Below, one piece after another: positions 15,414 through 34,728 of a DNA stretch of 37,053 nucleotides. Position 1 is the stretch's first letter; each line of letters opens with the position of its first letter. The stretch is from IMG/VR virus record IMGVR_UViG_3300027721_000038, positions 1 through 37,053 of that record. One strand, written 5' to 3'. The notes under the pieces were generated by a model, which saw only the letters and a program-made list of their open reading frames with translations, was not told where the DNA came from and ran no database searches. A program made the position numbers and the translations under genes. The DNA comes from a virus.

Positions 15414-17783
15414 CTATCCACCGTTGCTCGGGAACGCTTCGAGGATGCGGTAGCACTTACCGTGAAACCCGTAGGCGTCGACCATCTTGTCCTTCTGCAC
15501 TTCCATGACGTAACCGTTGTCGACCAAGCTGCGCATGACTTGCTTCGTTGCTTCCGTGCTGCCACCCTTGTGCGCTGTGAACGCAGGCAAGCGCTGGCAC
15601 TTTTTCTGGATGAGCGAGTGCGGGAAGATTGCATTGTCGCGCATGGCAGGCGGAACCTTGTACCCGGGCGGCACACCGTTCAAGAAGTAGTCGCGTATGA
15701 TGCTGACGACCTTGTTCTCGCGGCTCGTGTCGTCCGTACCGACGTCACCCTCGTCCAACTTGCGCTGCATGATACCGATGTCGCGGCGCACCACGAGCAG
15801 CGCCCACTCCAAATGCTCGAGGGTTATGCATGGGTGCGCGAAGTTGTCCCCGACCGCGAGCAACGCGCTGAGGCGCATTACCTTGAGCGACGCGCGGTTC
15901 CACATCTGCCGCCAGCTTTCGTCCTTGGTCTTGTTGATCTGCGTGTCGCACTCCTGCTCGAATGCCCACATGACTTGTGCAGCGTCCGCAGCAATGCTGA
16001 CGGGTACGCTTTGGTTCGTACCGATTTTGCCCTGTGCAGTGGATGCCATGGCGCCTAAGTATTCGCTTACGACCTGTGGCGGCTCGCGGAGTTGGTTGCG
16101 GTTCAGTGCAGGTCGTTCGCCCGTGTACTCCACAATGATGAAGCGCGACAGGAACCCGTCCTCCATCATGGACTCGGTCAGCGACGTGTAAAAGGTCTTC
16201 GGGGTCGTCTCGCCAATCATGCTGTACGCGACACCGCTCACGCTCTGGATGTTGCTGTCCTTGTTCGAGTACGTGATGCCACCGACGATCGCGCTCGGAC
16301 CGGACTTCTGGTACAGGTCCGTCATTGTCCTGCGCAGTGTGGACATCGAGGTGTCGCGTCCGTCGTCCACAGCAAGCCGACGCAGCTTGTGTCCCCACTC
16401 ACCGCACACGTTCACGAAGCATGTGTTCGCTGCGCACGCTTTAATGAGCGCAGGCCCGGAAGCGAAGTCGCTGAAGTCCACGAACATTTGGATTGCTGGC
16501 GAGCGTTGCGACGCTGCCTTGACTAGCGCGCTGACGCCGCTGTGCATTGCTTCCTTGCCGATAGCAGACTGCGCGACGAGGATCATGTAAATGTTCAAGC
16601 CGCTGTTCGGGATGTGCCACGCCTTAGCGCTCAACCCTGCAAGCAACCCCAGAGCACCAACGATTGCGACCTCCTTCACGGGGCGCGGTGCGCTGTCGTA
16701 TATGAACTGCGCTAGCACGCGCGTGAACCCGGGCGGCCATGGTAACCCCTGCTCCCCTGCGATCGCGCTCGCAGCGCTAGCGGGTGCGGCAAGCGCTGCT
16801 GCGACCGGGGGCGGCACTGGTGAGGGTTCGGCAATGGTCAGCTGAGTGCGGCGCATGTCGCCGAGCGCACGCACGCTGCTGTCGATGCCCTTGACTTCCG
16901 ACTTGTCCTCGTTGGCTTGGCGTGTGCGGATGGTAACGAGCGTGAGGTTGAGGTATCGGTCGTTCTTCTGCGACTTCTCCCGCTGCCCGAGCGCCGACTT
17001 GCGGAACAACCTGCGGCACTGTTCGTTCGACTTGCTGTAGAACGTGAACATGGACATGAGCGCAAGGTCCGCTTCCGACTGCGAAGGGTAGCCCAAGCGC
17101 TGCCACTCGCCGCGCCACAGCGCTTGGAAGTTCAGCGCGTTGTCTGCTGCCCAGGCGCGCTCCATTAGCACCTCGTCGGTGATGGTTGCTTCCACTTCCT
17201 CGAGCTTGATAGCGTCGACACGCTCACGCGCTGTGAGGTACATGGACGCGAACGCATTCACCCACTCGTTGCGCTCACGTATCGGACGGTCGAGCGCGAT
17301 GTTACCCGTGCAGATAATGTAGCGGCCCGACGTGTACGCTTCGACGTTGTCACGACGGTAACCCTTGCTCAGCGTTGCACGGGTCCAGATGTGCAACCCC
17401 TTGCCCGACTGCGAGGTCTCCGCATACGTGTCGAAGTTCTGCGCAATCTCCCATATCCAATTGAACTGGTCCGGGTGCGTCCACTTGGACTCGTCAATGG
17501 GTTCGCCTTTCTTGCGCTGCGACTCCGCGTCGCGCACGTCGAAGTCGATGCAGCAGTACGGGTCTGAGTCGCAGAGCACAAACCCCACACCATACCCCCG
17601 CTGCTGCGCGTGGTGAGCCGCAACCTCGAAGGGTAACCATTGCTCGGGGTTAACCGAGCTCGCTGCGTATAGCTGTCCGTGGGCGTCTACCGACAGAGGG
17701 GTCTTGTCCGGGGCTGCGATAACCCACTGCGGAAGACCTCGAAGCTCTGCGGGTATGCGGCCCCAATTGGCCGCTGATGTCAC
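15414..17783 (-). CDS. Primase-polymerase / DUF3987-type helicase fusion
   Basis: 789 aa, GTG 17783 in a GTGA overlap with the HTH gene. Residues 1-200 are an archaeo-eukaryotic-type prim-pol: YCCIDFDV (D80, D82 metal ligands), SGKGLHIW (catalytic His) and VEAYTSGRYIICTG. A PrCT/helical linker follows (about 230-330, with an Ala/Pro-rich stretch). Residues 360-789 resemble DUF3987, a RecA-like helicase domain in phage and plasmid primases: MILVAQSAIGKEAMHSG is a degenerate Walker A (GKE instead of GKS/T), and GETTPKTFYTSL and DGFLSRFIIVE are family words. It likely primes and unwinds at the phage origin. The altered Walker A may weaken ATPase activity. Confidence 0.85.
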   Translation of the reverse strand: MTSAANWGRIPAELRGLPQWVIAAPDKTPLSVDAHGQLYAASSVNPEQWLPFEVAAHHAQQRGYGVGFVLCDSDPYCCIDFDVRDAESQRKKGEPIDESKWTHPDQFNWIWEIAQNFDTYAETSQSGKGLHIWTRATLSKGYRRDNVEAYTSGRYIICTGNIALDRPIRERNEWVNAFASMYLTARERVDAIKLEEVEATITDEVLMERAWAADNALNFQALWRGEWQRLGYPSQSEADLALMSMFTFYSKSNEQCRRLFRKSALGQREKSQKNDRYLNLTLVTIRTRQANEDKSEVKGIDSSVRALGDMRRTQLTIAEPSPVPPPVAAALAAPASAASAIAGEQGLPWPPGFTRVLAQFIYDSAPRPVKEVAIVGALGLLAGLSAKAWHIPNSGLNIYMILVAQSAIGKEAMHSGVSALVKAASQRSPAIQMFVDFSDFASGPALIKACAANTCFVNVCGEWGHKLRRLAVDDGRDTSMSTLRRTMTDLYQKSGPSAIVGGITYSNKDSNIQSVSGVAYSMIGETTPKTFYTSLTESMMEDGFLSRFIIVEYTGERPALNRNQLREPPQVVSEYLGAMASTAQGKIGTNQSVPVSIAADAAQVMWAFEQECDTQINKTKDESWRQMWNRASLKVMRLSALLAVGDNFAHPCITLEHLEWALLVVRRDIGIMQRKLDEGDVGTDDTSRENKVVSIIRDYFLNGVPPGYKVPPAMRDNAIFPHSLIQKKCQRLPAFTAHKGGSTEATKQVMRSLVDNGYVMEVQKDKMVDAYGFHGKCYRILEAFPSNGG

Positions 17784-19442: not shown

Positions 19443-19709
19443 TTACATCCCGTTGAGCAAGCGTACCGCGTCGGCAAAGCTGTCCGCCTCACCCGTGTAC
19501 CCGCGACCCTCGACCCAAAAGTAGCCCCGGTCCTGCTGCTTGACCACATGGTCACCGCAGTTACGGTGCGTGACTACAAGGTAGTTCCCAAACAACCCAC
19601 CCGAGCGCACGAGGCGCACGTTGGTGAGGTTGCGCATGTGGGCAACACCAACGTAGATGCTGCGGTCACCGCAGTCGACGCTGAAAATGTTGCTGTAGAT
19701 GCGTGCCAT
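19443..19709 (-). CDS. Small protein of unknown function, first gene of a leftward operon
   Basis: 88 aa, ATG 19709 with AAGGAG 7 nt upstream; an upstream in-frame ATG was rejected. Beta-rich with two cysteines (VDCGDRSIYV, THRNCGDHVV). No family recognised. It follows the promoter at 19735-19763, which has the same spacer word (GTGCATCC) as promoters of the rightward array, so it is likely co-regulated with them. Confidence 0.7.
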   Translation of the reverse strand: MARIYSNIFSVDCGDRSIYVGVAHMRNLTNVRLVRSGGLFGNYLVVTHRNCGDHVVKQQDRGYFWVEGRGYTGEADSFADAVRLLNGM

Positions 19710-19734
19710 GTCGAACTCCTTACCTAGTGCAAGC

Positions 19735-19763
19735 ATAGTAAATCAGGATGCACGGTAGGTCAA
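19735..19763 (-). promoter_or_regulatory. Leftward promoter of the array type
   Basis: Minus strand TTGACC (19763-19758), 17-nt spacer containing GTGCATCCTGA, TACTAT (19740-19735). The initial transcribed word gcttgcac is shared with the promoter at 20023-20051. Confidence 0.78.
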
Positions 19764-19777
19764 GGGGTTTTCGAAAA

Positions 19778-19999
19778 TTATTCCGGCACCACGTCGACCC
19801 ACACGTTTTGAAACGTGCTGTGGATGCGCTTGGTGAAAGCTGAAACGCGGCTGCTGTCCGGGAATGCAACGAACACACCCTTGTCACTGCAACCGTCCAA
19901 CGTACCACCAAACTCCTTGACAATTGCTTCGAACTTGGTGCTCTCAGCTTTTGTGGGGAGGTTAGCGTGTTGGGTGTTGACGTGCGTGAGGGTTGTCAT
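19778..19999 (-). CDS. Small protein of unknown function, first leftward gene from the divergent region
   Basis: 73 aa, ATG 19999 with AAGGAG 6 nt upstream; a longer start was rejected. It reads like an alpha/beta fold (STKFEAIVKEFGGTLDGCSD, GVFVAFPDSSRVSAFTKRIH). Function unknown. It is transcribed from the promoter at 20023-20051, diverging from the rightward array. Confidence 0.7.
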   Translation of the reverse strand: MTTLTHVNTQHANLPTKAESTKFEAIVKEFGGTLDGCSDKGVFVAFPDSSRVSAFTKRIHSTFQNVWVDVVPE

Positions 20000-20022: not shown

Positions 20023-20051
20023 ATGGTAACGCAACCCAACCGGACGGGCAA
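20023..20051 (-). promoter_or_regulatory. Leftward promoter with AT-rich UP element
   Basis: Minus strand TTGCCC (20051-20046), 17-nt spacer, TACCAT (20028-20023). A/T-only stretches at 20054-20080 lie just upstream in the UP-element position. Confidence 0.7.
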
Positions 20052-20414
20052 GCTTTTTATTAAAGTTTTTATTTTATTTTGTGCTTGACGTAGCAGCACA
20101 ATTCAGCTAATGCAGTTTTTTATTTTTTGGTGGTGCTAAAAATAGCCATTAGCACTGTTTTGCGATTACCCCCGGCTATATGCCGCGCACGCTTTTAGAA
20201 AAAGATTTATGGCGCGGCATATACAAACAGGGTGTCCCTACTATTTTATTTAATTACTATTATTGTGTATAAGTGCTTGCTTTCATTGGGAGTTCTGTGT
20301 TATCCGCTGGATTTAACGCTGCTAATTGTAGGTCAAGCGGTCCACGGCACGCGCTAGCATGTGGTTATCCATACGTCAAGCGCTTTGCAATTAAAAATAA
20401 TTCGTCCAAACCCC
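20040..20414. other. AT-rich non-coding divergent region (candidate origin / control region)
   Basis: No gene fits here. It contains A/T-rich tracts (20054-20080, 20114-20128, 20238-20262); a perfect 12-bp inverted repeat (20177-20188 / 20212-20223, 23-nt spacer); a 7-bp inverted repeat (20133-20139 / 20149-20155); a weak rightward promoter-like pair TTGACG-17-TAATGC (20085-20113); and a DnaA-box-like TTATCCATA (20365-20373), one mismatch from TTATCCACA. Transcription diverges from it in both directions. Origin function is inferred. Confidence 0.5.
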
Positions 20415-20443
20415 TTGCATCCGGATTAGGGGTGCGCTATAGT
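20415..20443 (+). promoter_or_regulatory. Rightward promoter of array unit 1
   Basis: TTGCAT, 17-nt spacer with ccggattagg, TATAGT. GCATCCGGA overlaps the -35. Preceded by an A/T-rich stretch (aaaaataattcg). Confidence 0.75.
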
Positions 20444-20479
20444 TTGTTCACGGTGGAGCTAGGGAACAGGGGAAGCAAC

Positions 20480-20506
20480 AGGGTGTAAGTCCTAAACGGC
20501 AACCCT
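20480..20506 (+). promoter_or_regulatory. Hairpin in a 110-nt 5' leader
   Basis: AGGGT (20480-20484) pairs with ACCCT (20502-20506) around a 17-nt loop, inside the long leader between the promoter and the 20554 start. The other array genes have leaders of roughly 25-50 nt. No known riboswitch class is recognised. Confidence 0.35.
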
Positions 20507-20553
20507 CCCCAACCTAGCAAAGCCGCTGGACTAACACGTAACCGGAGCAGCAC

Positions 20554-20787
20554 ATGAACAACGTCAAAGCACCCGCCCACCTCGACACACTGGTCGTTTT
20601 TGAAACGCGGGAAGAGGACTACGAAGGGAACCTGCACTGCGCACACGGTAGCGATGGAAAGTTCTACTTGTTTTACGAAGGGGGCACTTTTAACGACGGC
20701 AGCGACTACTTCCAGTTCAACACACTGCCCGAAGCGTTTAAGCGCGCAGCCGAGTTGACCGCCGAGCTTTTGGGTATTGACGACTGA
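20554..20787 (+). CDS. Small acidic protein, array unit 1
   Basis: 77 aa, ATG with CGGAG 8 nt upstream. Acidic (many D/E), beta strands YFLFYEGG-like in the middle and a helical end LPEAFKRAAELTAELLGIDD. Unknown function. Own promoter (20415-20443) and own terminator (20808-20834) make it a self-contained transcription unit. Confidence 0.75.
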   Translation: MNNVKAPAHLDTLVVFETREEDYEGNLHCAHGSDGKFYLFYEGGTFNDGSDYFQFNTLPEAFKRAAELTAELLGIDD

Positions 20788-20807
20788 ACCCTTGCAACAT
20801 CCGGACC

Positions 20808-20834
20808 AAAGGCGCCTGAGGGCGCCTTTTTTTT
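20808..20834 (+). terminator. Rho-independent terminator, array unit 1
   Basis: Stem AAAGGCGCC/GGCGCCTTT with TGAG loop and eight T. The preceding 15 nt (TGCAACATCCGGACCAA) are repeated before the other array terminators. Confidence 0.92.
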
Positions 20835-20839
20835 GCTTT

Positions 20840-20986
20840 GCTGCACTGCGCTGTGAATAAGTCTGTTCATAACTCGCAAGGCGCGTCGATCGGGACAGTA
20901 CCGGGGCGGACGTACAGGGTCACCCCTCAAAACGCACAGCGAGCTTTATAATGCGTTCTAGCGAGAATGCAAGATGTGGACCAACT
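20840..20986 (+). repeat. About 145-bp imperfect repeat, copy A
   Basis: Shares CTGTGAATAAGTCTGTTCAT, GCGTCGATCGG, GTACAGGGTC, GTTCTA and GAATGCAAG..TGGACCAACT in the same order with copy B at 24200-24346. Contains a DnaA-box-like TGTGAATAA and TGTTCATAA pair. Non-coding by inspection; a structured RNA or protein-binding region. Confidence 0.72.
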
Positions 20987-21024
20987 TTGGGTCCAAAAAT
21001 ATCGAAAATAAATGCGAAAAGGGG

Positions 21025-21053
21025 TTGACGCACCCCTAGTCTTGATGCACAAT
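21025..21053 (+). promoter_or_regulatory. Array promoter
   Basis: TTGACG, 17-nt spacer, CACAAT. An inverted repeat AGGGGT/ACCCCT straddles the -35, preceded by aaaataaa. Confidence 0.75.
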
Positions 21054-21100
21054 TGCGTCATGGTTCAGCAACGTGCTGCACCACCAAACGGAGACCGAAC

Positions 21101-21373
21101 ATGCGAACCTTCAACTACACCGGAACACTGGTCACGCGCTGCCGCACCACTGGTCACACCGATGCATTTAGCTTCAGCGGGTTCACCTCTTGGGACGGTG
21201 TGGTGCGGGAGCTCAAGTCGCGCGTGCGCAACCCGAACTGCGAGCTGCGCAGCATGGTCGGTGTGGTCATTGAGGACTGCAAGCACGTCGACACGTTTGC
21301 CTACAATGCGGACGAGCTGCTGGAGCTCACCGGCACGGGGTCGCTCGACGTTGCGCAGTTCCGCAAGCGCTAA
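21101..21373 (+). CDS. Small protein of unknown function, array unit 2
   Basis: 90 aa, ATG 21101 with CGGAG upstream; a longer in-frame start overlaps the promoter and was rejected. Alpha/beta sequence (FSFSGFTSWDGVVRELKSRV, MVGVVIEDCKHVD). No family recognised. Next promoter follows 20 nt after its stop. Confidence 0.72.
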   Translation: MRTFNYTGTLVTRCRTTGHTDAFSFSGFTSWDGVVRELKSRVRNPNCELRSMVGVVIEDCKHVDTFAYNADELLELTGTGSLDVAQFRKR

Positions 21374-21393
21374 AAATAAATGCGTCCGGGGGC

Positions 21394-21422
21394 TTGACCT
21401 GCGGACGCATCCGGATTACACT
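21394..21422 (+). promoter_or_regulatory. Array promoter with operator-like repeat
   Basis: TTGACC, 17-nt spacer ending GCATCCGGAT, TACACT. ATGCGTCC (left) and GGACGCAT (right) form an inverted repeat around the -35; aaaaataaa lies upstream. Confidence 0.82.
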
Positions 21423-21469
21423 GTATTCACGGTGGAGCAACGGGTTCCACCCAACCGGAGCAAAGCAAC

Positions 21470-21697
21470 ATGACCACCCAGACCCACGAACCGCACGGCA
21501 CGACGTTTATGCGCAAGCTCAAGGGCCGCAAGCTCCAGTTTGCAATCGGCGGACCAACGCTTGCCGAAATTCAGCGCATGTGCATCGCGGGTCACGAGGA
21601 CGTGTTTGTGTGGCAGGGTGACAACAGGCAGGAGGTAGTTTTCCGCAAGCTCGCGGACGGGTCCATCGAAACGCTCAGCGACCGCTTTATCCCCTAG
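21470..21697 (+). CDS. Small protein of unknown function, array unit 3
   Basis: 75 aa, ATG with CGGAG 10 nt upstream. Basic middle (RKLKGRKLQFAIGGPT) and acidic end. No family recognised. Bounded by its own promoter and the terminator at 21741-21768. Confidence 0.72.
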   Translation: MTTQTHEPHGTTFMRKLKGRKLQFAIGGPTLAEIQRMCIAGHEDVFVWQGDNRQEVVFRKLADGSIETLSDRFIP

Positions 21698-21740
21698 GAG
21701 GTGCAAGATCCAGACCAACCAAGCTCAATCCCGAGCGCAA

Positions 21741-21768
21741 AAGGGTCACTTCGGTGACCCTTTTTTTT
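21741..21768 (+). terminator. Rho-independent terminator, array unit 3
   Basis: Stem AAGGGTCAC/GTGACCCTT with TTCG tetraloop and eight T. Confidence 0.93.
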
Positions 21769-21779
21769 GCCTAAAATAC

Positions 21780-21809
21780 TTGCCTCTACCTGAACTTTCG
21801 TGGTACAAT
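21780..21809 (+). promoter_or_regulatory. Extended -10 promoter, copy 1
   Basis: TTGCCT, 18-nt spacer, TGG-TACAAT (TGn extended -10), directly followed by GGTCCAAA. Same layout at 22898-22927 and 24140-24169, each just after a terminator. Confidence 0.75.
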
Positions 21810-21880
21810 GGTCCAAATGCGTTTCGGACGCGCAAGGCCCCGGATGCTGTGGGGCAGCAAAAATAAATGCGTCAAACCCC

Positions 21881-21909
21881 TTGACGTGTGGATGCATCCG
21901 GATTATCCT
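21881..21909 (+). promoter_or_regulatory. Array promoter
   Basis: TTGACG, 17-nt spacer with the palindrome GGATGCATCC, TATCCT. Second promoter for the 21948 unit, about 70 nt downstream of the extended -10 promoter. Confidence 0.8.
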
Positions 21910-21947
21910 GTCTGCACTAGGTAAGCAGTTCAACAGGAAGTAACCAA

Positions 21948-22103
21948 ATGTCCACCCGCGCCATGACCCTCCGCAACGTCACCGCCCTGCGCAACAGCCT
22001 TGGCAGCAAGCTGTTCGACCGCACGTACCGCTTCCTGCGCGAGGAAGCAATGCGCTCCTCGGACGGTACGGTCCGCACGTTTGCCATTTTCGAGGTGCGC
22101 TAA
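21948..22103 (+). CDS. Very small basic protein, array unit 4a
   Basis: 51 aa, ATG with AGGAAG upstream. Strongly basic (many R/K: TRAMTLRNVTALRNSLGSKL). Too short for family assignment. One base separates its stop from the next start, so three genes here (21948, 22105, 22293) form a mini-operon. Confidence 0.65.
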   Translation: MSTRAMTLRNVTALRNSLGSKLFDRTYRFLREEAMRSSDGTVRTFAIFEVR

Positions 22104-22104
22104 A

Positions 22105-22296
22105 ATGTACGCACGCGACCTGAAGGCCGGTCAGCGCTTCCAGTTTGTCAACGCTTTTGGCAACGTCCCCGTGAGTGCCCCCGTGTACACGGTAACCCGT
22201 GACGCGCAGCGCGCAAGCGAGCCCGGGTACTGGATCGTCCACACCAACCTCGAGCGGTGGGCGGGTCGCGGTCGTTCCCCTGTGGTGCTGCTGTGA
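22105..22296 (+). CDS. Small basic protein, array unit 4b
   Basis: 63 aa, ATG directly after the preceding TAA. MYARDLKAGQRFQFVNAFGN with later APVYTVTRD resembles small SH3-like beta barrels common in phage accessory genes. Function unknown. Its TGA overlaps the next GTG start (GTGA). Confidence 0.68.
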   Translation: MYARDLKAGQRFQFVNAFGNVPVSAPVYTVTRDAQRASEPGYWIVHTNLERWAGRGRSPVVLL

Positions 22297-22499
22297 CCGC
22301 AAAGCGCGTCACGCTCAAGTCCAAGGGGTTCGACCGGGCATACCACGTCCTGCTGGACGGTGTCAAGGTCGGCGAGGTAACCCGGCAAATTGCTAGCACC
22401 ACGTACACCGGCAAGGTGAACGACGGTAAGCGGGACTGGCAGGTCTGGGGGTTGAACCAAAAGGAAGTCATTGCTGTGGTGGAAATGTACCTCACGTGA
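22293..22499 (+). CDS. Small protein, array unit 4c
   Basis: 68 aa from GTG 22293 (GTGA overlap); an upstream in-frame ATG lies inside the previous gene. Beta-rich, basic (RVTLKSKGFDRAYHVLLDGV, then KVGEV). Unknown function. Confidence 0.68.
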   Translation: MTAKRVTLKSKGFDRAYHVLLDGVKVGEVTRQIASTTYTGKVNDGKRDWQVWGLNQKEVIAVVEMYLT

Positions 22500-22525
22500 C
22501 CTTCCCAAATGGAATCACGAAACCC

Positions 22526-22554
22526 TTGACAACCGGATGCATCCGGACCATACT
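22526..22554 (+). promoter_or_regulatory. Array promoter with perfect 14-bp palindrome
   Basis: Consensus TTGACA, 17-nt spacer, CATACT. The spacer holds the perfect palindrome CCGGATGCATCCGG (22533-22546), a likely operator. Confidence 0.85.
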
Positions 22555-22579
22555 TGCGTCACCTACTAAGGAGACCGAC

Positions 22580-22837
22580 ATGCCCCAAGTCAAAATGACC
22601 GAACTCCCACGCACCGAGCTTGCACAGTTCGACTGGATAGTTGGTCCGGTTTATGCAGCGCACGTTGCGGACCTGTACGACATAGCGCTTGTGTATCAGG
22701 GTCCGGGAGCGTATGCAGTGGTCCGCCCCTCGCACCAGGCCTACGTCGCATGCTGCCCCAACGAGCGCAAAGCGCAGCAACTCATCGAGTCGCTTGCTGA
22801 CGCGCTGTCCGACGACGAGCGCACCCGACCCGTCTAA
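22580..22837 (+). CDS. Small acidic protein, array unit 5
   Basis: 85 aa, ATG with AAGGAG 7 nt upstream; a longer start through the promoter was rejected. Two cysteines (VACCPNERKAQQL). Alpha/beta, unknown. Terminator at 22861-22884. Confidence 0.72.
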   Translation: MPQVKMTELPRTELAQFDWIVGPVYAAHVADLYDIALVYQGPGAYAVVRPSHQAYVACCPNERKAQQLIESLADALSDDERTRPV

Positions 22838-22860
22838 CCCCTGCAACATCTGGACCAACT

Positions 22861-22884
22861 AAGGGCGCGGAGGCGCCCTTTTTT
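22861..22884 (+). terminator. Rho-independent terminator, array unit 5
   Basis: Stem AAGGGCGC/GCGCCCTT, GGAG loop, six T. Preceded by TGCAACATCTGGACCAAC. Confidence 0.9.
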
Positions 22885-22897
22885 GCGTCCAAAAGAC

Positions 22898-22927
22898 TTG
22901 CCCTCCCCGCGCGGTTCATGGTACAAT
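22898..22927 (+). promoter_or_regulatory. Extended -10 promoter, copy 2
   Basis: TTGCCC, 18-nt spacer, TGG-TACAAT, followed by GGTCCAAA. Confidence 0.75.
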
Positions 22928-22989
22928 GGTCCAAACGGGTTGCGCCCGGGTCGTGCTGCACGGCAGCGAAAATAAAGTGGACGCACCCC

Positions 22990-23018
22990 TTGCCTCCTGC
23001 ATCCGGATGACCCATACT
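22990..23018 (+). promoter_or_regulatory. Array promoter
   Basis: TTGCCT, 17-nt spacer with GCATCCGGA, CATACT; aaaataaa lies upstream. Confidence 0.75.
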
Positions 23019-23044
23019 ACCAACAGTTCAACAGGAGACCCGAC

Positions 23045-23323
23045 ATGCCCCAAGCCCACACCGCTCGCATCGTTACCTTCCACCGCTCGCAGGGTTGGAC
23101 CACAATAACGCTTGACCTCACGAAAAAGTCCGTGGCGGTTTGGGCGCGGTCGGTCGGGTACACGGTCACCGGCGTCAAGGAGCAAAGCTCCAACCCGCGC
23201 ATGCAGTTCCGCGCCGAAATGGTGGGTGAACCCATTATTGCGGAACTGGTCGGTCCCATGTACGACGGGGACGGGGTTGTGCGGTACGAAAGCACCGAAG
23301 CCTATGACGCGCTGTCAAGGTAA
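23045..23323 (+). CDS. Small protein of unknown function, array unit 6
   Basis: 92 aa, ATG with AGGAG. Alternating beta strands (ARIVTFHRSQGWTTITLDL, KKSVAVWARSVGYTVTGV), possibly a small beta-barrel. Starts MPQ like the gene at 22580 and has the same leader layout, but the rest is different. Unknown function. Confidence 0.72.
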   Translation: MPQAHTARIVTFHRSQGWTTITLDLTKKSVAVWARSVGYTVTGVKEQSSNPRMQFRAEMVGEPIIAELVGPMYDGDGVVRYESTEAYDALSR

Positions 23324-23341
23324 ATAAATCAGCGCGGGGGC

Positions 23342-23370
23342 TTGACCTCCCCCGTGCGTTGACCTAAGCT
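23342..23370 (+). promoter_or_regulatory. Array promoter with inverted repeat
   Basis: TTGACC, 17-nt spacer, TAAGCT. GCGGGGG and CCCCCGT flank the TTGAC as inverted repeat arms; aaataaa upstream. Confidence 0.72.
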
Positions 23371-23396
23371 GCTCACAGTTCAACAGGAGCCCCGCA

Positions 23397-23546
23397 ATGA
23401 CCTTCGACCTGCACATTGACGCAAGCATCCGCGACCTGCTGCTGCAAGCGCTCGCGCCCCTTGCCACGCCCGGTTCCGAAGCGGAAGCTGTAGCTGACAT
23501 GCTGCGCGACCTCGAACCCACTGGTCTCAACGACCTCACCGCCTAA
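23397..23546 (+). CDS. Very small acidic helical protein, array unit 7a
   Basis: 49 aa, ATG with AGGAG. Acidic amphipathic helices (IDASIRDLLLQALAPL, EAEAVADMLRDLEP). Unknown. First of three closely linked genes (23397, 23556, 23855). Confidence 0.62.
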   Translation: MTFDLHIDASIRDLLLQALAPLATPGSEAEAVADMLRDLEPTGLNDLTA

Positions 23547-23555
23547 GGAGTTGAC

Positions 23556-23858
23556 ATGCCCCTCCGCATCTGCTATCACCCGCTGCTCGCGCAACAGCAA
23601 GTCAACACGCGCATGCTCCCCTTCGCCATGTTCGGTATCACGGGAGGGTACGGTCGCACACGCGCTGCACTGGTCGACGCTGTGCGCAACGGGAACCATG
23701 TGGTCGCCCGGGGCTTGTTCGACAAGCTTGTGCTCGAGGGTGTACGGGACGACGTTAAGGAAAACGGAATCACCGAGCGGGAAGCGTACGACGGTCTAGC
23801 CCTTGCATGCAAGAACGAGACCATGTTCGCCGGGTTTGTGGTGGAGGGTGCGCTGTGA
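23556..23858 (+). CDS. Small protein of unknown function, array unit 7b
   Basis: 100 aa, ATG with AAGGAG. Alpha/beta (FGITGGYGRTRAALVDAVRN, VVARGLFDKLVLEGVRDDV). No catalytic motif recognised. TGA overlaps the next GTG. Confidence 0.7.
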   Translation: MPLRICYHPLLAQQQVNTRMLPFAMFGITGGYGRTRAALVDAVRNGNHVVARGLFDKLVLEGVRDDVKENGITEREAYDGLALACKNETMFAGFVVEGAL

Positions 23859-24076
23859 CCATCCTCATGACCATTAAGGTCCACGAAGGGGGAAACCCGA
23901 ACAACCCCGTTGTCAAGCTCCACGTCGAAAGCGACGGGACCGGCCACAGCTTCACCGTCCGAGCCGGCGGGAAGGCCCTGCTAGCGGATGGAAGCAAGAA
24001 TCGTTCGCATCCGGTGCTGAGCGCAGCGACTCAGGATGCACTGCGGGAGGCGACCGCTGTGGTCACCGACCTGTAG
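23855..24076 (+). CDS. Small protein of unknown function, array unit 7c
   Basis: 73 aa from GTG 23855 (GTGA overlap, GGAGGG upstream); ATG 23867 is an alternative. Beta-rich start (TIKVHEGGNPNNPVVKLHVE), helical end. Unknown. Terminator at 24097-24128. Confidence 0.68.
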   Translation: MTILMTIKVHEGGNPNNPVVKLHVESDGTGHSFTVRAGGKALLADGSKNRSHPVLSAATQDALREATAVVTDL

Positions 24077-24096
24077 AGGGTTGCAAGAATTGGACC

Positions 24097-24128
24097 AAAG
24101 GGAGCCTCCGGGCTCCCTTTTTATTTTT
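24097..24128 (+). terminator. Rho-independent terminator, array unit 7
   Basis: Stem AAAGGGAGCC/GGCTCCCTTT, TCCG loop, then T-rich tail. Preceded by TTGCAAGAATTGGACCAA. Confidence 0.92.
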
Positions 24129-24139
24129 CACGCAGGGGC

Positions 24140-24169
24140 TTGACGTGCATCCGCTAGATGTGGTACAAT
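24140..24169 (+). promoter_or_regulatory. Extended -10 promoter, copy 3
   Basis: TTGACG, 18-nt spacer with GCATCCG, TGG-TACAAT, followed by GGTCCAAA. It would transcribe repeat copy B. Confidence 0.78.
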
Positions 24170-24199
24170 GGTCCAAACGTCTGCGCGACGCGCCCGAAT

Positions 24200-24346
24200 T
24201 GCTGCGCTGCACTGTGGATAAATCTGTTCATAACTCTCACCATGCGTCGATCGGTCATGCCCCCTTGCGTCGGTACAGGGTCGGTCGAAAATCGCTTAAA
24301 TCGCGTTAGGCGCGGTTCTACGTGGAATGCAAGTCTTGGACCAACT
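24200..24346 (+). repeat. About 145-bp imperfect repeat, copy B
   Basis: Homologous in order to copy A (20840-20986). Contains TGTGGATAA, the exact complement of the DnaA box TTATCCACA, then TGTTCATAA 7 nt later, GCGTCGATCGG, GTACAGGGTC and GGAATGCAAGTCTTGGACCAA. Non-coding by inspection. Confidence 0.74.
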
Positions 24347-24373
24347 ATTTGCCGAAAATAGTTCGAAAAAGGG

Positions 24374-24402
24374 TTGACGTCTGGATGTAGTTGACGCATA
24401 CT
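24374..24402 (+). promoter_or_regulatory. Array promoter
   Basis: TTGACG, 17-nt spacer, CATACT; preceded by an A-rich tract (cgaaaatagttcgaaaaa). Confidence 0.72.
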
Positions 24403-24428
24403 TGCTTCAGGTTCAACGGGAGAGCGAC

Positions 24429-24791
24429 ATGACATTAGAAGTAGGCGTTCGAGGATGGCTCCGGGCAACGAGCAAGCGCACCGAAGACGGTGACGTGGTT
24501 GTGGTGGAGGACTTCAACGTCATCGCTCGGGACGCTACTGGTCGCCAGTGGGTCCATGAGGTCACCTTCGCGGGTCGCGTTGGTGAGACCGAGGAAGGTT
24601 TCGGTTACGGTGTGGACGGGGACGAAGCTGCTGCACAGCGCTTGGCGGACCGCGTCAACGCGCACCTCGCTCACGAGGGTACACTGGACGCGCGTCGCTG
24701 GACCGAAATCGAGGCGGCTTACGGTTCCGAGGCTTATGTCAACGGCGGGGGCGAGGAAGCGCTTATCGCTTGGGAGCGCTCGGTCCGCTGA
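24429..24791 (+). CDS. Acidic protein of unknown function, array unit 8
   Basis: 120 aa, ATG with GGGAG; longer in-frame start rejected. Beta-rich N-terminal half (VVVVEDFNVIARDATGRQW), helical Ala/Arg C-terminal half. No family recognised. Confidence 0.72.
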   Translation: MTLEVGVRGWLRATSKRTEDGDVVVVEDFNVIARDATGRQWVHEVTFAGRVGETEEGFGYGVDGDEAAAQRLADRVNAHLAHEGTLDARRWTEIEAAYGSEAYVNGGGEEALIAWERSVR

Positions 24792-24811
24792 AAATAAAGA
24801 TGCACGGGGGC

Positions 24812-24840
24812 TTGACTCCCCGTGCATCCTGACCCACACT
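24812..24840 (+). promoter_or_regulatory. Array promoter with perfect 11-bp inverted repeat
   Basis: TTGACT, 17-nt spacer, CACACT. Arms 24799-24809 and 24818-24828 are perfect complements with the -35 in the 8-nt loop. On the minus strand the hairpin is followed by TTTATTTT and could terminate leftward transcripts. Confidence 0.82.
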
Positions 24841-24866
24841 ACCTCCATCGACTACTGGAGCACGAC

Positions 24867-25157
24867 ATGAAACCCGAACTCATTGGACCGCCCGACCTCC
24901 GCAGCATGACGCAGCGGCAGCGCTTGAACCACCTCAAGGCGCAGGGCATCGAGCTGGACCTCGCTACCTCCCACGGGGGCGGGAACCGGGACCACGGGAC
25001 ATGGAGCGTCGAGTTCCGCGGACCGGGACTGCCCAACCGCTACACCCAAATTCAGGTCCGCTGCCGCACGTACAGCGGCAAGTTCGACGGGAAGCGCGCG
25101 TGCGAGCGGGAAGCCAAGGAGCTCGCGGTCGCTCGGATGCTCGGGTTGGACGACTGA
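24867..25157 (+). CDS. Basic protein of unknown function, array unit 9
   Basis: 96 aa, ATG with TGGAG. N-terminal helix-turn pattern (LRSMTQRQRLNHLKAQGIEL), basic beta part (YTQIQVRCRTYSGKFDGKRA) and a helical end AKELAVARMLGLDD. Possibly a small nucleic-acid-binding protein; no family recognised. Confidence 0.72.
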   Translation: MKPELIGPPDLRSMTQRQRLNHLKAQGIELDLATSHGGGNRDHGTWSVEFRGPGLPNRYTQIQVRCRTYSGKFDGKRACEREAKELAVARMLGLDD

Positions 25158-25176
25158 AAATAGTTCGCCCGGGGGC

Positions 25177-25205
25177 TTGAACTCCCGGGCGTGTCGACGT
25201 ACAAT
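25177..25205 (+). promoter_or_regulatory. Array promoter with inverted repeat
   Basis: TTGAAC, 17-nt spacer, TACAAT. CGCCCGGG (25166-25173) and CCCGGGCG (25184-25191) flank the -35. Confidence 0.8.
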
Positions 25206-25230: not shown

Positions 25231-25965
25231 ATGGCCGAACTCGAAGGTGTGCAGAGGGAGAAGGTGCTGGACCGCGTCCGCAAGATGCTGGCTCTGGCGA
25301 ACGACGACGGTGCAGCCGAGGGTGAGCGGGACAACGCGCTCCGCATGGCGCACAACACGCTCGCCAAGTACGAAATGACGCTCATCGAGCTCGACGCATT
25401 TGCGCGCGAGAAAGCGGACCCGCGCGGACGCTTCGACACCGAGGGTTGGAACCTGCTGTGGTGCAGGTACATCCGGCAGACGGTCGCCCGGCTGTTCGGT
25501 TGCGAGTACCTGCAAGGGGGCAAGATTAACGCCACGCGCGGTCGGCACATTTACATCGGTCGCACAAGCAACACCGCGACCGCTGCGTACATGAGCGACT
25601 TCATTATCCAGGGTGTCATCCGCGAAGCGGACAAGCGCTACGGCCACCGGCTCAACCCGGAAGGTCGCTCGTTCTGCACCGGCGTGAGCGACCGCTTGCG
25701 GGTCCGCGTGCGGGAGCTACAGGAAGCGAACCGCAAGGAACTCGAAGCCACCCCCGGCACAGCGCTTGTGCTTGCGGACTACTGGCGCACCGAGGCGGAA
25801 GCGAACGACGAGTGGATGACCGCCAACATGAAGGTCGGCAAGGCCCGGGCCGTTGCGCGCAGCAGCATCCACGCTGGCTCGTACCACGCTGGCAAAGCGC
25901 ACGCGGACAGCATTAACCTGTCCCGTCAGCTGAGCGCCGGCAAGGGTGCTCCCCGACTCAAGTAA
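25231..25965 (+). CDS. DUF2786-domain protein
   Basis: 244 aa, ATG with AGGAG. The N-terminus VLDRVRKMLALAND...EGERDNALRMAHNTLAKYEM (10-49) matches DUF2786, a helical domain common in phage and bacterial proteins that handle DNA or zinc. The rest, including a basic TSNTATAAYMSDFI and RLRVRVRELQEANRKELEA segment, resembles the DUF7168-type C-terminal domain. Function not established. Largest gene of the array and its last unit, with its own promoter. Confidence 0.78.
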   Translation: MAELEGVQREKVLDRVRKMLALANDDGAAEGERDNALRMAHNTLAKYEMTLIELDAFAREKADPRGRFDTEGWNLLWCRYIRQTVARLFGCEYLQGGKINATRGRHIYIGRTSNTATAAYMSDFIIQGVIREADKRYGHRLNPEGRSFCTGVSDRLRVRVRELQEANRKELEATPGTALVLADYWRTEAEANDEWMTANMKVGKARAVARSSIHAGSYHAGKAHADSINLSRQLSAGKGAPRLK

Positions 25966-26292: not shown

Positions 26293-26472
26293 ATGCTGAT
26301 TTTGACTCGTAAGCCCGGCGAAACCATTTGCATCGGGGACGAAATCCAGATTACAATACTCGGTGTCTCGGGGCATCAAATACGCATCGGCATCGATGCA
26401 CCTCGGGACGTGCCGGTCGACCGCAAGGAAGTGTACTTGCGCAAACAAGCTGAAAAAGGGATTGACAAATGA
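26293..26472 (+). CDS. csrA: CsrA/RsmA carbon storage regulator homolog
   Basis: 59 aa, ATG with GGGAG 7 nt upstream; the in-frame upstream extension was rejected. [20 protein letters not shown], then [20 protein letters not shown] and [14 protein letters not shown], matches CsrA along its full length (about 61 aa). L4 and R6 and the R of VDRKE, the two RNA-contact regions, are kept. CsrA dimers bind GGA loops in mRNA leaders and block or activate translation. A phage copy may redirect host or phage translation. Its stop overlaps the next start (ATGA), and its leader is GGA-rich. Confidence 0.93.
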
Positions 26473-28018: not shown

Positions 28019-29719
28019 ATGACAATTGTAGCAGCAGACTGGAGCGTTGACCGCACCACCAAGAACGTCCGGTACATCGGTGACGACCATGTGCGCTTCG
28101 GCGGCACGACCCCGAGTTATGCGACGGTCATCGAATTTCACCGTTGGTTGCAGGACTTGGCGGATGACGCCAGCTACGCAGGCAACGACGAGCTCGACAT
28201 CACGGACGTTACCCCGTCCGAGCGTGCAACGGACAACTTCGTCACGCTCATCAACGGGTACAACATCGACGCCACCACGGCGGAGCACTTGTACGACGGC
28301 TCCATTGTGCAGGGCGGCGGCACCGACATCTGGGACGGCATCGTCAACTTCGGTAACTCCGACGTCCAGATCCAGCTCATCCAGAACGGCGCGGTGCTGG
28401 CGGACGATTGGTGGAACACTGCGAGCGGCGGTCTGAACTCCGACGCCACTGCGGGTATCTCGCACCGCTTCATGCTCAAGACGCGCACGTCGGGCACGGA
28501 CATCGACTTGCGCAAGATCCTCGGCACAGCGCGTCGCTTCGGCAAGACGTACAGCGAGTTCAACATCAACGGCACCTCGCGCGGTAACAACGTCCTCGCG
28601 TTGGCAGACGCCACCGACTTGAACAACGCGACGGTCATCGGTACGGTCGCGGGTTGGGCCACGATTGCCAATATCACGGAAGGGTACAACCCCATCGACA
28701 TCGACAACGATGGCGACAACGAGTTCCTGTACAGCGAATGGAACCGCGACATCTACTCGATCAACCAGTTCTACGAGCGCATGAAGTGGCTCACGCGCGA
28801 CGGTTCAACGGAGACCCTGTACGGCCTGAGCGGTGAACTGTTCCGCGGTATCACCCACGAACTCACGATGACCACGCCGCGCAGCGGCACGTTCAGCGCG
28901 TTCGAGGCAGTCAGTTGGTCGGGCGGCACGGGCCAGATGCTTGCGGTGAACGTCGCAGCAGCGGCCACCAAAATCTGGATTCAGCTGCTGACGGGTACTG
29001 CCCCGGGAACGGGTGTGCTCATCACGGGTGGCTCGTCCGGCGCAACCGGCACGACCAGTGGCTCCGCGCTCGAGCGGCCTGTGTCGAAGCCCTTCTGCGG
29101 TGTCAGCACGGGTTCAGCGCTCATCGGTGCGTTCGGCTTCTCGCTCGAGTACGCTGACCTTTCGAACACCGACCTCATCACAGCCCTGGACGGTGTGACG
29201 TACAGCCCACCGAACAACGTCACGTTCAGCGTCGGCGGCCTGGTCGTAGGCGAGGACCGTGTGCTCGTGGGACCGGAGCTCGCAGGCGGCTTGAACTACG
29301 GGCAGTTCGCGCTCAACGGTGCGCTGACAGGTGCAGCGGTGACCGCTGTGGTCATCACCGGCCCCATCCCTGCGGACACGCCGAGCAGCGGCACCATCCG
29401 TATCGAGCGCGCGGACGGAGCATACACGCTGCATCCGTACAGCTCGTGGACCGGCAGCACGTTCACGATCACCTCGCACAACTTCAGCACGAACAATGCT
29501 GCCAACGCTGCGGACGTGTTCATCAGCTACATCGACAAGCTCGCAGCGAGCACGACCGAGTCTTTCACGGTTGTGTATGCAGGCTCGCCTCGAGCGCTGT
29601 TCATTCGTGTGCGCGACGGTGGCACGGTTGGCGCCAGCCCCATCAAGACCTTCGAAACGACGGGTTCGCTCGGTGCAGCAGGCGGCAGCACGACAGCGAT
29701 CCGCACGCCCGACTTGTAA
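28019..29719 (+). CDS. Large virion structural (fibre/appendage) protein
   Basis: 566 aa, ATG with GAGG upstream. It is Ser/Thr/Gly/Ala-rich with few charged stretches and many beta strands (IQLIQNGAVLADDWWN, TFTITSHNFSTNN, SFTVVYAGSPRALFIRV). I recognise it only as a phage virion-type protein, with no lytic or catalytic motif. It is followed 3 nt later by the related-style 29723 gene. Confidence 0.7.
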   Translation: MTIVAADWSVDRTTKNVRYIGDDHVRFGGTTPSYATVIEFHRWLQDLADDASYAGNDELDITDVTPSERATDNFVTLINGYNIDATTAEHLYDGSIVQGGGTDIWDGIVNFGNSDVQIQLIQNGAVLADDWWNTASGGLNSDATAGISHRFMLKTRTSGTDIDLRKILGTARRFGKTYSEFNINGTSRGNNVLALADATDLNNATVIGTVAGWATIANITEGYNPIDIDNDGDNEFLYSEWNRDIYSINQFYERMKWLTRDGSTETLYGLSGELFRGITHELTMTTPRSGTFSAFEAVSWSGGTGQMLAVNVAAAATKIWIQLLTGTAPGTGVLITGGSSGATGTTSGSALERPVSKPFCGVSTGSALIGAFGFSLEYADLSNTDLITALDGVTYSPPNNVTFSVGGLVVGEDRVLVGPELAGGLNYGQFALNGALTGAAVTAVVITGPIPADTPSSGTIRIERADGAYTLHPYSSWTGSTFTITSHNFSTNNAANAADVFISYIDKLAASTTESFTVVYAGSPRALFIRVRDGGTVGASPIKTFETTGSLGAAGGSTTAIRTPDL

Positions 29720-29722
29720 TAA

Positions 29723-33487: not shown

Positions 33488-33795
33488 TGAAGAGCTGTTA
33501 CACGCTGCGCATGCCCGACGGGCATAGCATCGCAATCCTGGACCTGTCAAAAGTCCGGGGGCGCGTGTACGAGATAAACCGGATTAACGTACCAGAGCGC
33601 CACAGGGGTCGCAGGTACGGTGCAGCCCTGCTGCGCGAGGTGTGTACCGAGGCTGACCGCTGCGGCGTGCTGCTGCGCTTGGTGGCGATGGCAAGCGGTG
33701 GTATGAGCGCAGCGGAGCTCGAAGCGTGGTACACCCGTCACGGTTTTGTGCAGCGCAGCAACGGGTATTCCTATCGGGAACCTCTAGGGGCTTGA
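33487..33795 (+). CDS. GNAT-family N-acetyltransferase
   Basis: 102 aa, TAATG overlap. GNAT core: YEINRINVPERHRGRRYGAA (acetyl-CoA loop R-x-x-G-x-G/A type, RGRRYG), LLREVCTEADRCG, AWYTRHGFVQ (motif B). Shorter than typical (about 140 aa), lacking the first strand(s). Target unknown. Confidence 0.82.
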   Translation: MKSCYTLRMPDGHSIAILDLSKVRGRVYEINRINVPERHRGRRYGAALLREVCTEADRCGVLLRLVAMASGGMSAAELEAWYTRHGFVQRSNGYSYREPLGA

Positions 33796-33820
33796 CCCAT
33801 GCTTGCGCCCTTGCTATGCT
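33792..33820 (+). promoter_or_regulatory. Rightward promoter
   Basis: TTGACC, 17-nt spacer, TATGCT; AAGGAG ribosome site follows before the 33847 gene. Confidence 0.75.
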
Positions 33821-34537: not shown

Positions 34538-34644
34538 TCAAGAAATGGGTTGGCCGGCTGCTGTGCAGCATAGGTTGGCACGACTGGAGGGAGTATTATG
34601 GAGCGGAAGGGTGCTCCCGCTGTCCAGCGTTCCGGAGACCCTAA
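34534..34644 (+). CDS. Very small zinc-ribbon-like protein
   Basis: 36 aa, ATG in an ATGA overlap. LLCSIGWHDWREYYGAEGCS and RCPAFRRP place CxxxxWH and CxxC together as a tiny zinc motif, a type seen often in phage small ORFs. Unknown function. Confidence 0.6.
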   Translation: MIKKWVGRLLCSIGWHDWREYYGAEGCSRCPAFRRP

Positions 34645-34663
34645 AAATAGTTTGAAAGGGGGC

Positions 34664-34692
34664 TTGCCATGTAGTTCCGGTGGAGGTACAGT
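34664..34692 (+). promoter_or_regulatory. Rightward promoter of the UvrD-like helicase
   Basis: TTGCCA, 17-nt spacer, TACAGT; preceded by aaaaatagtttgaaaggggg, the array-type A-rich upstream element. Confidence 0.75.
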
Positions 34693-34728
34693 ACACCCAT
34701 CGAACAACACGTGACTTGGAGAACTCAG

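Follow-up and report, generated by a model that had tools for sequence, protein, structure and literature searches.

A putative early accessory-gene array with copied promoter/stem-loop linkers in a predicted Nipunavirus-like phage

The plug-in design for accessory genes is itself already known from two virus groups other than the one studied here. In the T4-type phages RB49 and phi1, work by Arbiol in 2010 reportedly described the promoter-early stem-loop (PeSL), said to pair a strong sigma70 promoter with a stem-loop that is an effective terminator, among small nonessential genes of a variable region. Cluster K mycobacteriophages carry extended start-associated sequences (ESAS), repeated intergenic SigA-like promoters of about 46 bp with a 17-18-bp spacer and an inverted repeat (PMC3203893; PMC11373665). 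They precede non-structural genes and their consensus differs between subclusters (Pope 2011, PMC3203893; Adephagia, PMC11373665); the inverted repeats are conserved in sequence, and at most sites a 13-bp SAS accompanies the ESAS at the start codon (PMC3203893; PMC11373665). T4 early promoters have UP, -35 and -10 elements and compete for the host polymerase (PMC2988021). SPO1 has a host-takeover module of 26 small, mostly uncharacterised genes clustered in one region (PMC6873191).

We analysed 37,053 nucleotides of IMG/VR record IMGVR_UViG_3300027721_000038 (the window). The genome has a Nipunavirus-type primase/helicase and leftward replication module, its primase is 53-55% identical to those of JG054, NP1, PaMx25 and VPv62, and its gene order is the same as that of VPv62 along 17-1 kb. 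We regard it as a Queuovirinae-like, Nipunavirus-like siphophage; its closest relatives share 53-57% primase identity and none closer was found. The array occupies a variable slot with replication genes on one side and a DUF2786 gene on the other. In the window this slot, bounded by the conserved genes m3/m4 and the DUF2786 gene, spans ~6.5 kb and holds 13 ORFs, whereas in L020 and L038, the distant relatives to which the comparison of slot size and content is confined, it spans ~2 kb and holds unrelated small ORFs. These differences agree with the original prediction of a modular accessory array behind copied promoters. Cassette exchange between close relatives was not observed, because no close relative was found.

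A consensus scan of 19.0-27.0 kb returned 13 sigma70-like sites, whereas dinucleotide shuffles gave 2.4 +/- 1.5. Where at least nine promoters with 17-nt spacing had been predicted, we identified ten sigma70-type promoters of one family within 20415-25205, and every spacer is 17 nt (Table 1). A weight matrix built from these ten and scanned over 37 kb recovered two untrained sites, at 34664(+) with 30.3 bits and at 19763(-) with 31.7, the next best score in the 37 kb being 11.8. Leave-one-out scores were 19.7-37.1 for eight of the ten; 23342 scored 12.4, about the best background score, and 20415 scored 8.4, below it, so we regard both as weaker family members. Weaker copies also occur outside the array, at 33792(+) and 20051(-).

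Table 1. Array features and related sites in the window
Feature	Position	Strand	-35 start	Remarks
Outlying family promoter	19735..19783	-		before leftward ORF 19443-19736; outside training set
Weaker leftward family member	20023..20073	-		resembles Nipunavirus promoter
Promoter P1 (TTGCAT-17-TATAGT)	20393..20443	+	20415	precedes ORF 20554-20787; weak member, leave-one-out 8.4 bits
Small ORF o1, 77 aa	20554..20787	+		no family match
Intrinsic terminator T1	20808..20829	+		preceded by word TGCAACATCCGGACCAA
Noncoding repeat D2 copy 1	20838..20998	.		paired DnaA-box-like 9-mers at 20852, 20864
Promoter P2 (TTGACG-17-CACAAT)	21005..21053	+	21025	
Small ORF o2, 90 aa	21101..21373	+		
Promoter P3	21372..21422	+	21394	9-bp arms; UP-like A-tract overlaps o2 stop codon
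Small ORF o3, 75 aa	21470..21697	+		
Intrinsic terminator T2	21739..21764	+		
Second-type promoter A1 (TTGCCT-18-TACAAT, TGGTACAATGGTCCAAA)	21780..21809	+		
Promoter P4	21859..21909	+	21881	spacer holds GGATGCATCCGGAT
Small ORFs o4-o6	21948..22499	+		21948-22103, 22105-22296, 22257-22499 (probable start GTG 22297)
Promoter P5 (TTGACA-17-CATACT)	22505..22554	+	22526	holds palindrome CCGGATGCATCCGG at 22533-22546
Small ORF o7, 85 aa	22580..22837	+		no relative in phage records
Intrinsic terminator T3	22861..22880	+		
Second-type promoter A2	22898..22927	+		
Promoter P6 (TTGCCT-17-CATACT)	22968..23018	+	22990	
Small ORF o8, 92 aa	23045..23323	+		
Promoter P7 (TTGACC-17-TAAGCT)	23321..23370	+	23342	73-nt linker from stop to ATG; stem strong; scores lower with the matrix
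Small ORFs o9-o11	23397..24076	+		23397-23546, 23556-23858, 23855-24076
Intrinsic terminator T4	24097..24120	+		
Second-type promoter A3	24140..24169	+		
Noncoding repeat D2 copy 2	24199..24358	.		paired DnaA-box-like 9-mers at 24213 (exact TGTGGATAA), 24225
Promoter P8 (TTGACG-17-CATACT)	24355..24402	+	24374	
ORF o12, 120 aa	24429..24791	+		relatives in Pseudomonas phage Astolliot and Caulobacter phage terminal repeats
Promoter P9	24789..24840	+	24812	11-bp perfect arms; o12 stop within A-tract
Small ORF o13, 96 aa	24867..25157	+		no relative found
Promoter P10 (TTGAAC-17-TACAAT)	25155..25205	+	25177	8-bp arms; o13 stop within A-tract
DUF2786/DUF7168 gene	25231..25965	+		conserved right edge of variable slot
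Weaker family member	33792..33820	+		immediately 3' of a stop codon
Outlying family promoter	34642..34692	+		before UvrD-like helicase gene (34711-36222); outside training set

The predicted upstream A/T-rich element is present as an A-tract from -20 to -15 in which two positions are 100% A. It fits the UP-element consensus of RNA polymerase in the correct register: the fit peaks 20-21 nt before the -35 box (101 and 105 of 168 matches), compared with 38-62 matches at 25-38 nt and a drop to 56 at 17. The UP element and -35 boxes are good and the -10 boxes mediocre (CATACT, CACACT, TAAGCT), so that the promoters may not be strong without an activator. Distances are tightly kept, with 54-55 nt from -35 to ATG at P5-P10, a gap of 18-20 nt from stop codon to -35 at P3, P7, P9, P10 and 34664, where the stop codon lies inside the A-tract, and a linker of 73-75 nt at P7, P9 and P10.

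The ORFs between the promoters, as had been predicted, are unrelated: blastp gave no convincing mutual similarity, the best match covering 20 residues of 21948-22103 and 22257-22499 (E 6e-4, from a very small search). Nearly all are without database relatives, and these putative accessory genes may serve to take over the host early or to counter its defences. Four rightward terminators divide the array. Whole intergenic modules (M1-M4) are duplicated, with D2 copies ~75% identical, and a TGn before the -10 box occurs only in A1-A3. An Rfam search of the array gave nothing credible and a search for tandem repeats found none. Binding of CsrA to the leaders was set aside, since a ribosome site of the AGGAG type resembles the motif that CsrA recognises.

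Inverted arms around the -35 box had been predicted for most promoters. The pairing is real, since the two arms of one promoter pair better with each other than with arms taken from other promoters (p about 0.001; p=0.0012 for the longest Watson-Crick run and about 0.0006 by energy), but only four of 12 sites (21394, 23342, 24812 and 25177) have strong stems, with energies of -19 to -25 kcal/mol. Stems are moderate at 20415, 21025 and 21881, and the remaining sites have none. The predicted 11-bp perfect arms at 24799-24828 are correct; here GATGCACGGGG and CCCCGTGCATC flank TTGACT, and the full stem has 13 pairs (24797-24830). Arm positions have low information content although own-arm pairing is kept, and the pairing was replicated independently in L038, NP1 and Me-ZS1 (p 0.0081/0.0015). 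The association of strong stems with an adjacent stop codon is marginal (Fisher p 0.045, on a reading of the data chosen post hoc). The arms had also been proposed as leftward terminators. On the minus strand the four strong stems are indeed followed by a TTTATTTT-like sequence, but the terminator scan passes only 24812 and the short stem at 21881, and the corresponding stems of NP1 and two of L038 have no T-run. In the gene direction the simple-linker stems also lack a T-run.

Conservation of the motif in related phages, which the original prediction had made a point of comparison, holds for the design and fails for the exact sequence. A promoter-anchored search revealed own within-genome promoter families in Nipunaviruses, phage Me-ZS1, the IMG/VR contig L038 and L085, whereas reversed controls gave no cluster of three or more; L147, L154 and L156-L158 have their own families near DUF2786 genes. 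The cultured Variovorax phage VPv62 is among the relatives with a family of its own. Family promoters are uniform within a genome and different between genomes. With the window's own matrix, window sites score 30-51; scores in 75 primase-linked contig stretches were at background level or isolated, with a maximum of 20.6. Promoter-core DNA patterns had no match in IMG/VR, and a single core match in an Omnitrophota bin looked like chance. A repeat-family search of relatives without the promoter anchor returned mostly coding repeats only and missed families later found with the anchor. Promoter density in relatives mostly equalled that of shuffles, and the DUF2786 neighbours vB_Ade_ART, ctfzr933, S0112, Polewnik and BcepGomr have no promoter family. 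Counted generically, promoters with a stem numbered 22 in relatives and 18 in the reversed control, so stems are not generally enriched and only the within-family arm-swap test is informative. Since distant relatives keep the design but build it from sequences of their own, the array resembles a site into which accessory genes can be plugged.

With moderate confidence, we interpret the locus as a rightward early accessory array in which unrelated small genes are separated by copied promoter/stem-loop linkers read by the host polymerase. The simplest linker (P7, P9, P10) has first the stop codon of the previous gene within the A-rich UP element, then a stem holding the -35 box in its loop, the 17-nt spacer and the -10 box, and last a leader of ~20 nt carrying a GGAG ribosome site before the next ATG. 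Four longer linkers add a rightward terminator, three of them a second promoter type and two an origin-like repeat. Every linker would be a start site for the host's sigma70 RNA polymerase; each gene or gene pair would therefore be expressed independently of its neighbours, and the array could gain, lose or exchange genes while the others stay unaffected. We infer that the array is transcribed early and that exchange proceeds by recombination between linkers. The stem probably shields or ends transcripts at the junction: it would protect the upstream mRNA at its 3' end and, in the window phage, perhaps halt leftward antisense RNA.

The original prediction had placed the array under a shared repressor or activator. 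Such a phage DNA-binding protein would act through a shared operator, either GCATCCGGA/GGATGCATCC in the spacer or the A/T element, and we consider this rather unlikely. The + strand of the window carries the word GCATCCGGA six times where 0.21 would be expected, and five of the six lie inside array promoters, an enrichment that hints at a sequence-specific regulator; its position varies (+2, +9 or +13 from the -35 start), which resembles an independent binding site more than a sigma contact. The mediocre -10 boxes also favour a regulator, and the likeness of promoters within but not between genomes is as expected if they co-evolve with one. Of the predicted spacer words, the P5 palindrome stands as claimed. 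However, half of the promoters lack GCATCCGGA, the A/T element already fits an ordinary UP element, the arms of the palindromes differ in sequence as those of a dimer site would not, and no window regulator is tied to the site.

It is improbable that the linkers are kept mainly as short recombination homologies, that is, as mobile regulatory cassettes made alike by repeated copying, with a secondary promoter role. The duplication of whole intergenic modules and the unrelated ORFs of the variable slot would suit this, but the 17-nt spacers, hexamers and -35-to-ATG distance are strictly kept while the rest varies, and promoter function is therefore under selection. We find it quite doubtful that the -35 box lies in the loop of a stem selected for pairing, not sequence, with promoter use depending on supercoiling or upstream transcription; if so, the stem would be a self-insulating, sequence-free switch, and any gene could be plugged into the early region. 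Least credible, and very improbable, is an active DNA-level switch extruded under supercoiling or in single-stranded DNA, like the N4 hairpin promoters, whose stems are short, whose loop is 3 nt long and which require the N4 virion polymerase. Four lineages have arms that vary in sequence but still pair around a loop containing the -35 box, which points this way; yet most family promoters have no strong stem, they carry ordinary sigma70 hexamers spaced by 17 nt, and no N4-type virion polymerase was identified among the scanned proteins of this incomplete window.

If the locus is an accessory array of host-read linkers, as we favour, it bears on phage early accessory genes, a main source of uncharacterised proteins for host takeover and counter-defence. 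Because the distances from stop to -35 and from -35 to ATG are fixed, the linker would allow such slots to be found from sequence only, and the lineage-specific promoter versions suggest, in a form that can be tested, how phage arrays stay receptive to new genes.

Compared with the described systems, the array clusters many small uncharacterised genes as the SPO1 module does, but the gene content is unrelated, and takeover is shown for SPO1 proteins whereas in the window it would be a possible role. Like T4 early promoters, the family has UP, -35 and -10 elements aimed at the host sigma70 polymerase, but its hexamers are further from consensus and the main family has no TGn before the -10 box. 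It shares with ESAS the repeated intergenic promoters with -35 and -10 boxes 17 bp apart; in contrast to ESAS, the arms vary in sequence while pairing is kept and are centred on the -35 box, and the phage lineage and host are not those of cluster K. The SAS 13-mer GGGATAGGAGCCC has zero matches in the window allowing up to 2 mismatches. As in the PeSL, promoter and stem-loop lie between small genes of a variable region, but the simple-linker stem is not followed by a T-run when read in the gene direction, separate canonical rightward terminators are found in only four linkers, and the phage is not T4-type. On our best reading, the array works like the PeSLs of T4-type phages and the ESASs of cluster K and belongs to neither.

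We identified ten promoters of a single family in the interval 20415-25205, all with 17-nt spacers, in line with the nine or more near-identical promoters of this spacing originally noted. Sigma70-like sites are enriched between 19 and 27 kb (13 versus 2.4 expected), and a matrix of the family picks up two sites beyond its training set at 30-32 bits, the next match scoring 11.8. On leave-one-out scoring eight members are strong and two (P1 and P7) are weak. Information peaks at the A-tract (-20 to -15), at TTGAC, at a G-A pair some 3 nt ahead of the -10 box, and at the A and T of that box. A second promoter family, TGGTACAATGGTCCAAA, has three members (A1-A3), each immediately past a terminator. 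The complementary words GGACCAA, which precedes terminators, and GGTCCAA, just past A-type -10 boxes, are array-enriched.

The window is a 37,053-base IMG/VR virus record, a single metagenomic contig, and incomplete. Its primase/helicase shares 53-55% identity with primases of Nipunavirus (JG054, NP1 and PaMx25) and of Variovorax phage VPv62, whose DNA is similar to much of the leftward half, which also encodes a helicase, a Cas4-like exonuclease, SSB and ligase. Hosts of the named relatives are Variovorax, Pseudomonas and Xanthomonas. The rightward part begins at ~20.4 kb with the array, followed by genes for a DUF2786/DUF7168 protein, a CsrA-like protein and a UvrD-like helicase. The CsrA-like protein (59 residues; Pfam CsrA, 1.2e-24; PHROG 'CsrA-like regulator') is a predicted phage-encoded post-transcriptional regulator. 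Two large ORFs have no match in PHROG or Pfam; relatives of the second occur in several IMG/VR contigs.

Features of the window (array promoters P1-P10 by -35 start)
Feature	Position	Strand
Primase/helicase	15414-17783	-
P1-P10	20415, 21025, 21394, 21881, 22526, 22990, 23342, 24374, 24812, 25177	
P1 leader	20444-20553	+
GGACCAA	20803, 20978, 22852, 24092, 24338	
D2 copies	20838-20998, 24199-24358	
GGTCCAA	20990, 21810, 22928, 24170	
A1-A3	21780, 22898, 24140	
DUF2786/DUF7168 gene	25231-25965	
CsrA-like gene	26293-26472	+
Large ORFs (566 and 525 aa)	28019-31300	+
UvrD-like helicase gene	34711-36222	

For the UP consensus AAAWWTWTTTTNNNAAA, the best fit comes with a start 20-21 nt ahead of the -35 (101 and 105 matches out of 168), with a smooth fall at flanking offsets to 56 at 17 nt, and 38-62 matches at offsets of 25-38 nt. 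This register agrees with the -40 to -60 placement of known UP elements (PMC2988021); the element concerned is the A/T-rich upstream one originally noted. At P3, P7, P9, P10 and the outlying promoter 34664 (upstream ORF taken to end at TAA 34642-34644), the upstream ORF's stop codon falls within the A-tract, 18-20 nt before the -35. The -35 lies 54-55 nt from the ATG in P5 through P10, and the stop-to-ATG linkers of P7, P9 and P10 measure 73-75 nt. Four longer linkers (M1-M4) all have a terminator and a TGCAANATNNGGACCAA-like word; an A-type promoter is also present in three, and the noncoding repeat D2 in two. The 160-nt D2 copies contain paired DnaA-box-like 9-mers (TGTGAATAA/TGTGGATAA-N3-TGTTCATAA) and are candidate origin elements. 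The P1 leader, ~110 nt, GC-rich and with possible long pairings, is possibly structured; the leaders of P5-P10 are ~20 nt.

The inverted-repeat arms noted around the -35 pair specifically with their own partners: against swapped halves (12 promoters per test), the longest paired run gives p=0.0012 and energy ~0.0006 in the window, with 0.0081 and 0.0015, respectively, for L038, NP1 and Me-ZS1 pooled. A generic count of stem-bearing promoters across all relatives gave no excess over control, and thus the stem belongs to these families rather than to promoters at large. Strong stems (-19 to -25 kcal/mol) occur at P3, P7, P9 and P10, each directly past a stop codon with no terminator between; P5 and 34664 are so placed yet lack a strong stem, and the association with stop-adjacency (4/6 versus 0/5, p=0.045) is post hoc and weak. 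Because the A-tract sits there, U-rich sequence follows the stems on the minus strand, so leftward termination is possible. As to the proposal that the arms are leftward terminators, a terminator scan flagged P9 and the short P4 stem and left the other stems unflagged.

Conservation of the motifs in related phages held in part: sequence searches of relatives and databases found no match to the exact window promoter, but several relatives have families of their own. Clustering promoter-anchored sites by their surrounding sequence recovered families of at least three in the window, VPv62 (five clustered sites, one, 22698, doubtful), NP1, DoCa3, L012, Me-ZS1, L038 and L085 (a distant relative only, whose members lie on both strands); reversed sequence yielded none. 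In a set of 61 loci surrounding DUF2786 genes, L147, L154, L156-L158 (one lineage) and L116 (the same contig as L038) have families, and the reversed control again had none. AAATAGTTCG upstream of promoters is common to L038 and the window. L154 (161-2237) and L157 (6026-15256), from phages with weak similarity only to the window phage, have distinct families around DUF2786 genes (AATACTTG...TGGATGGGGNTATGGTATAAT; TTGACA...CGTGGTATACT).

The array occupies a variable slot, whose borders, m3/m4 (left) and DUF2786 (right), are both kept in L020, the closest relative by primase; L038 keeps an m4 relative and DUF2786. The slot spans 6.5 kb with 13 ORFs in the window and ~2 kb with different small ORFs in L020 and L038, a comparison resting on relatives none of which closely matches the window across the array. 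Within the loci searched, array ORFs had no convincing relative; a phage-record search with four of them found relatives for o12 only (Pseudomonas Astolliot and the terminal repeats of Caulobacter CcrSC and CcrBL9) and none for the other three. In Me-ZS1, a row of small ORFs that has a promoter family of its own lies between DUF2786 and a DnaA-box-like region (14 9-mers at 48.3-48.95 kb). The L020 slot also includes ~600 nt (7640-8250, minus) with long inverted repeats and no obvious genes, and no Rfam match.

We infer transcription, timing, stem function and gene exchange in the array, and the most economical account is that host sigma70 polymerase would start at every linker. Terminators and stems would hold the units apart, so that genes would be exchangeable one by one. 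Alternatively, a shared regulator, as originally proposed, may govern the array promoters, consistent with the enrichment of GCATCCGGA (6 on the + strand versus 0.21 expected); however, this word is present in only 5 of the 10 promoters, and its spacing to the -35 takes three different values.

The nearest described systems are the ESAS of cluster K mycobacteriophages, in which a SigA-like promoter with an inverted repeat recurs, and the PeSLs of T4-type phages, cited in PMC4177764. The SAS word is absent from the window, the arm sequence, unlike that of ESAS, is not conserved, and the phage, unlike PeSL carriers, is not T4-type. For these reasons the array belongs to neither system, but it would work like both.
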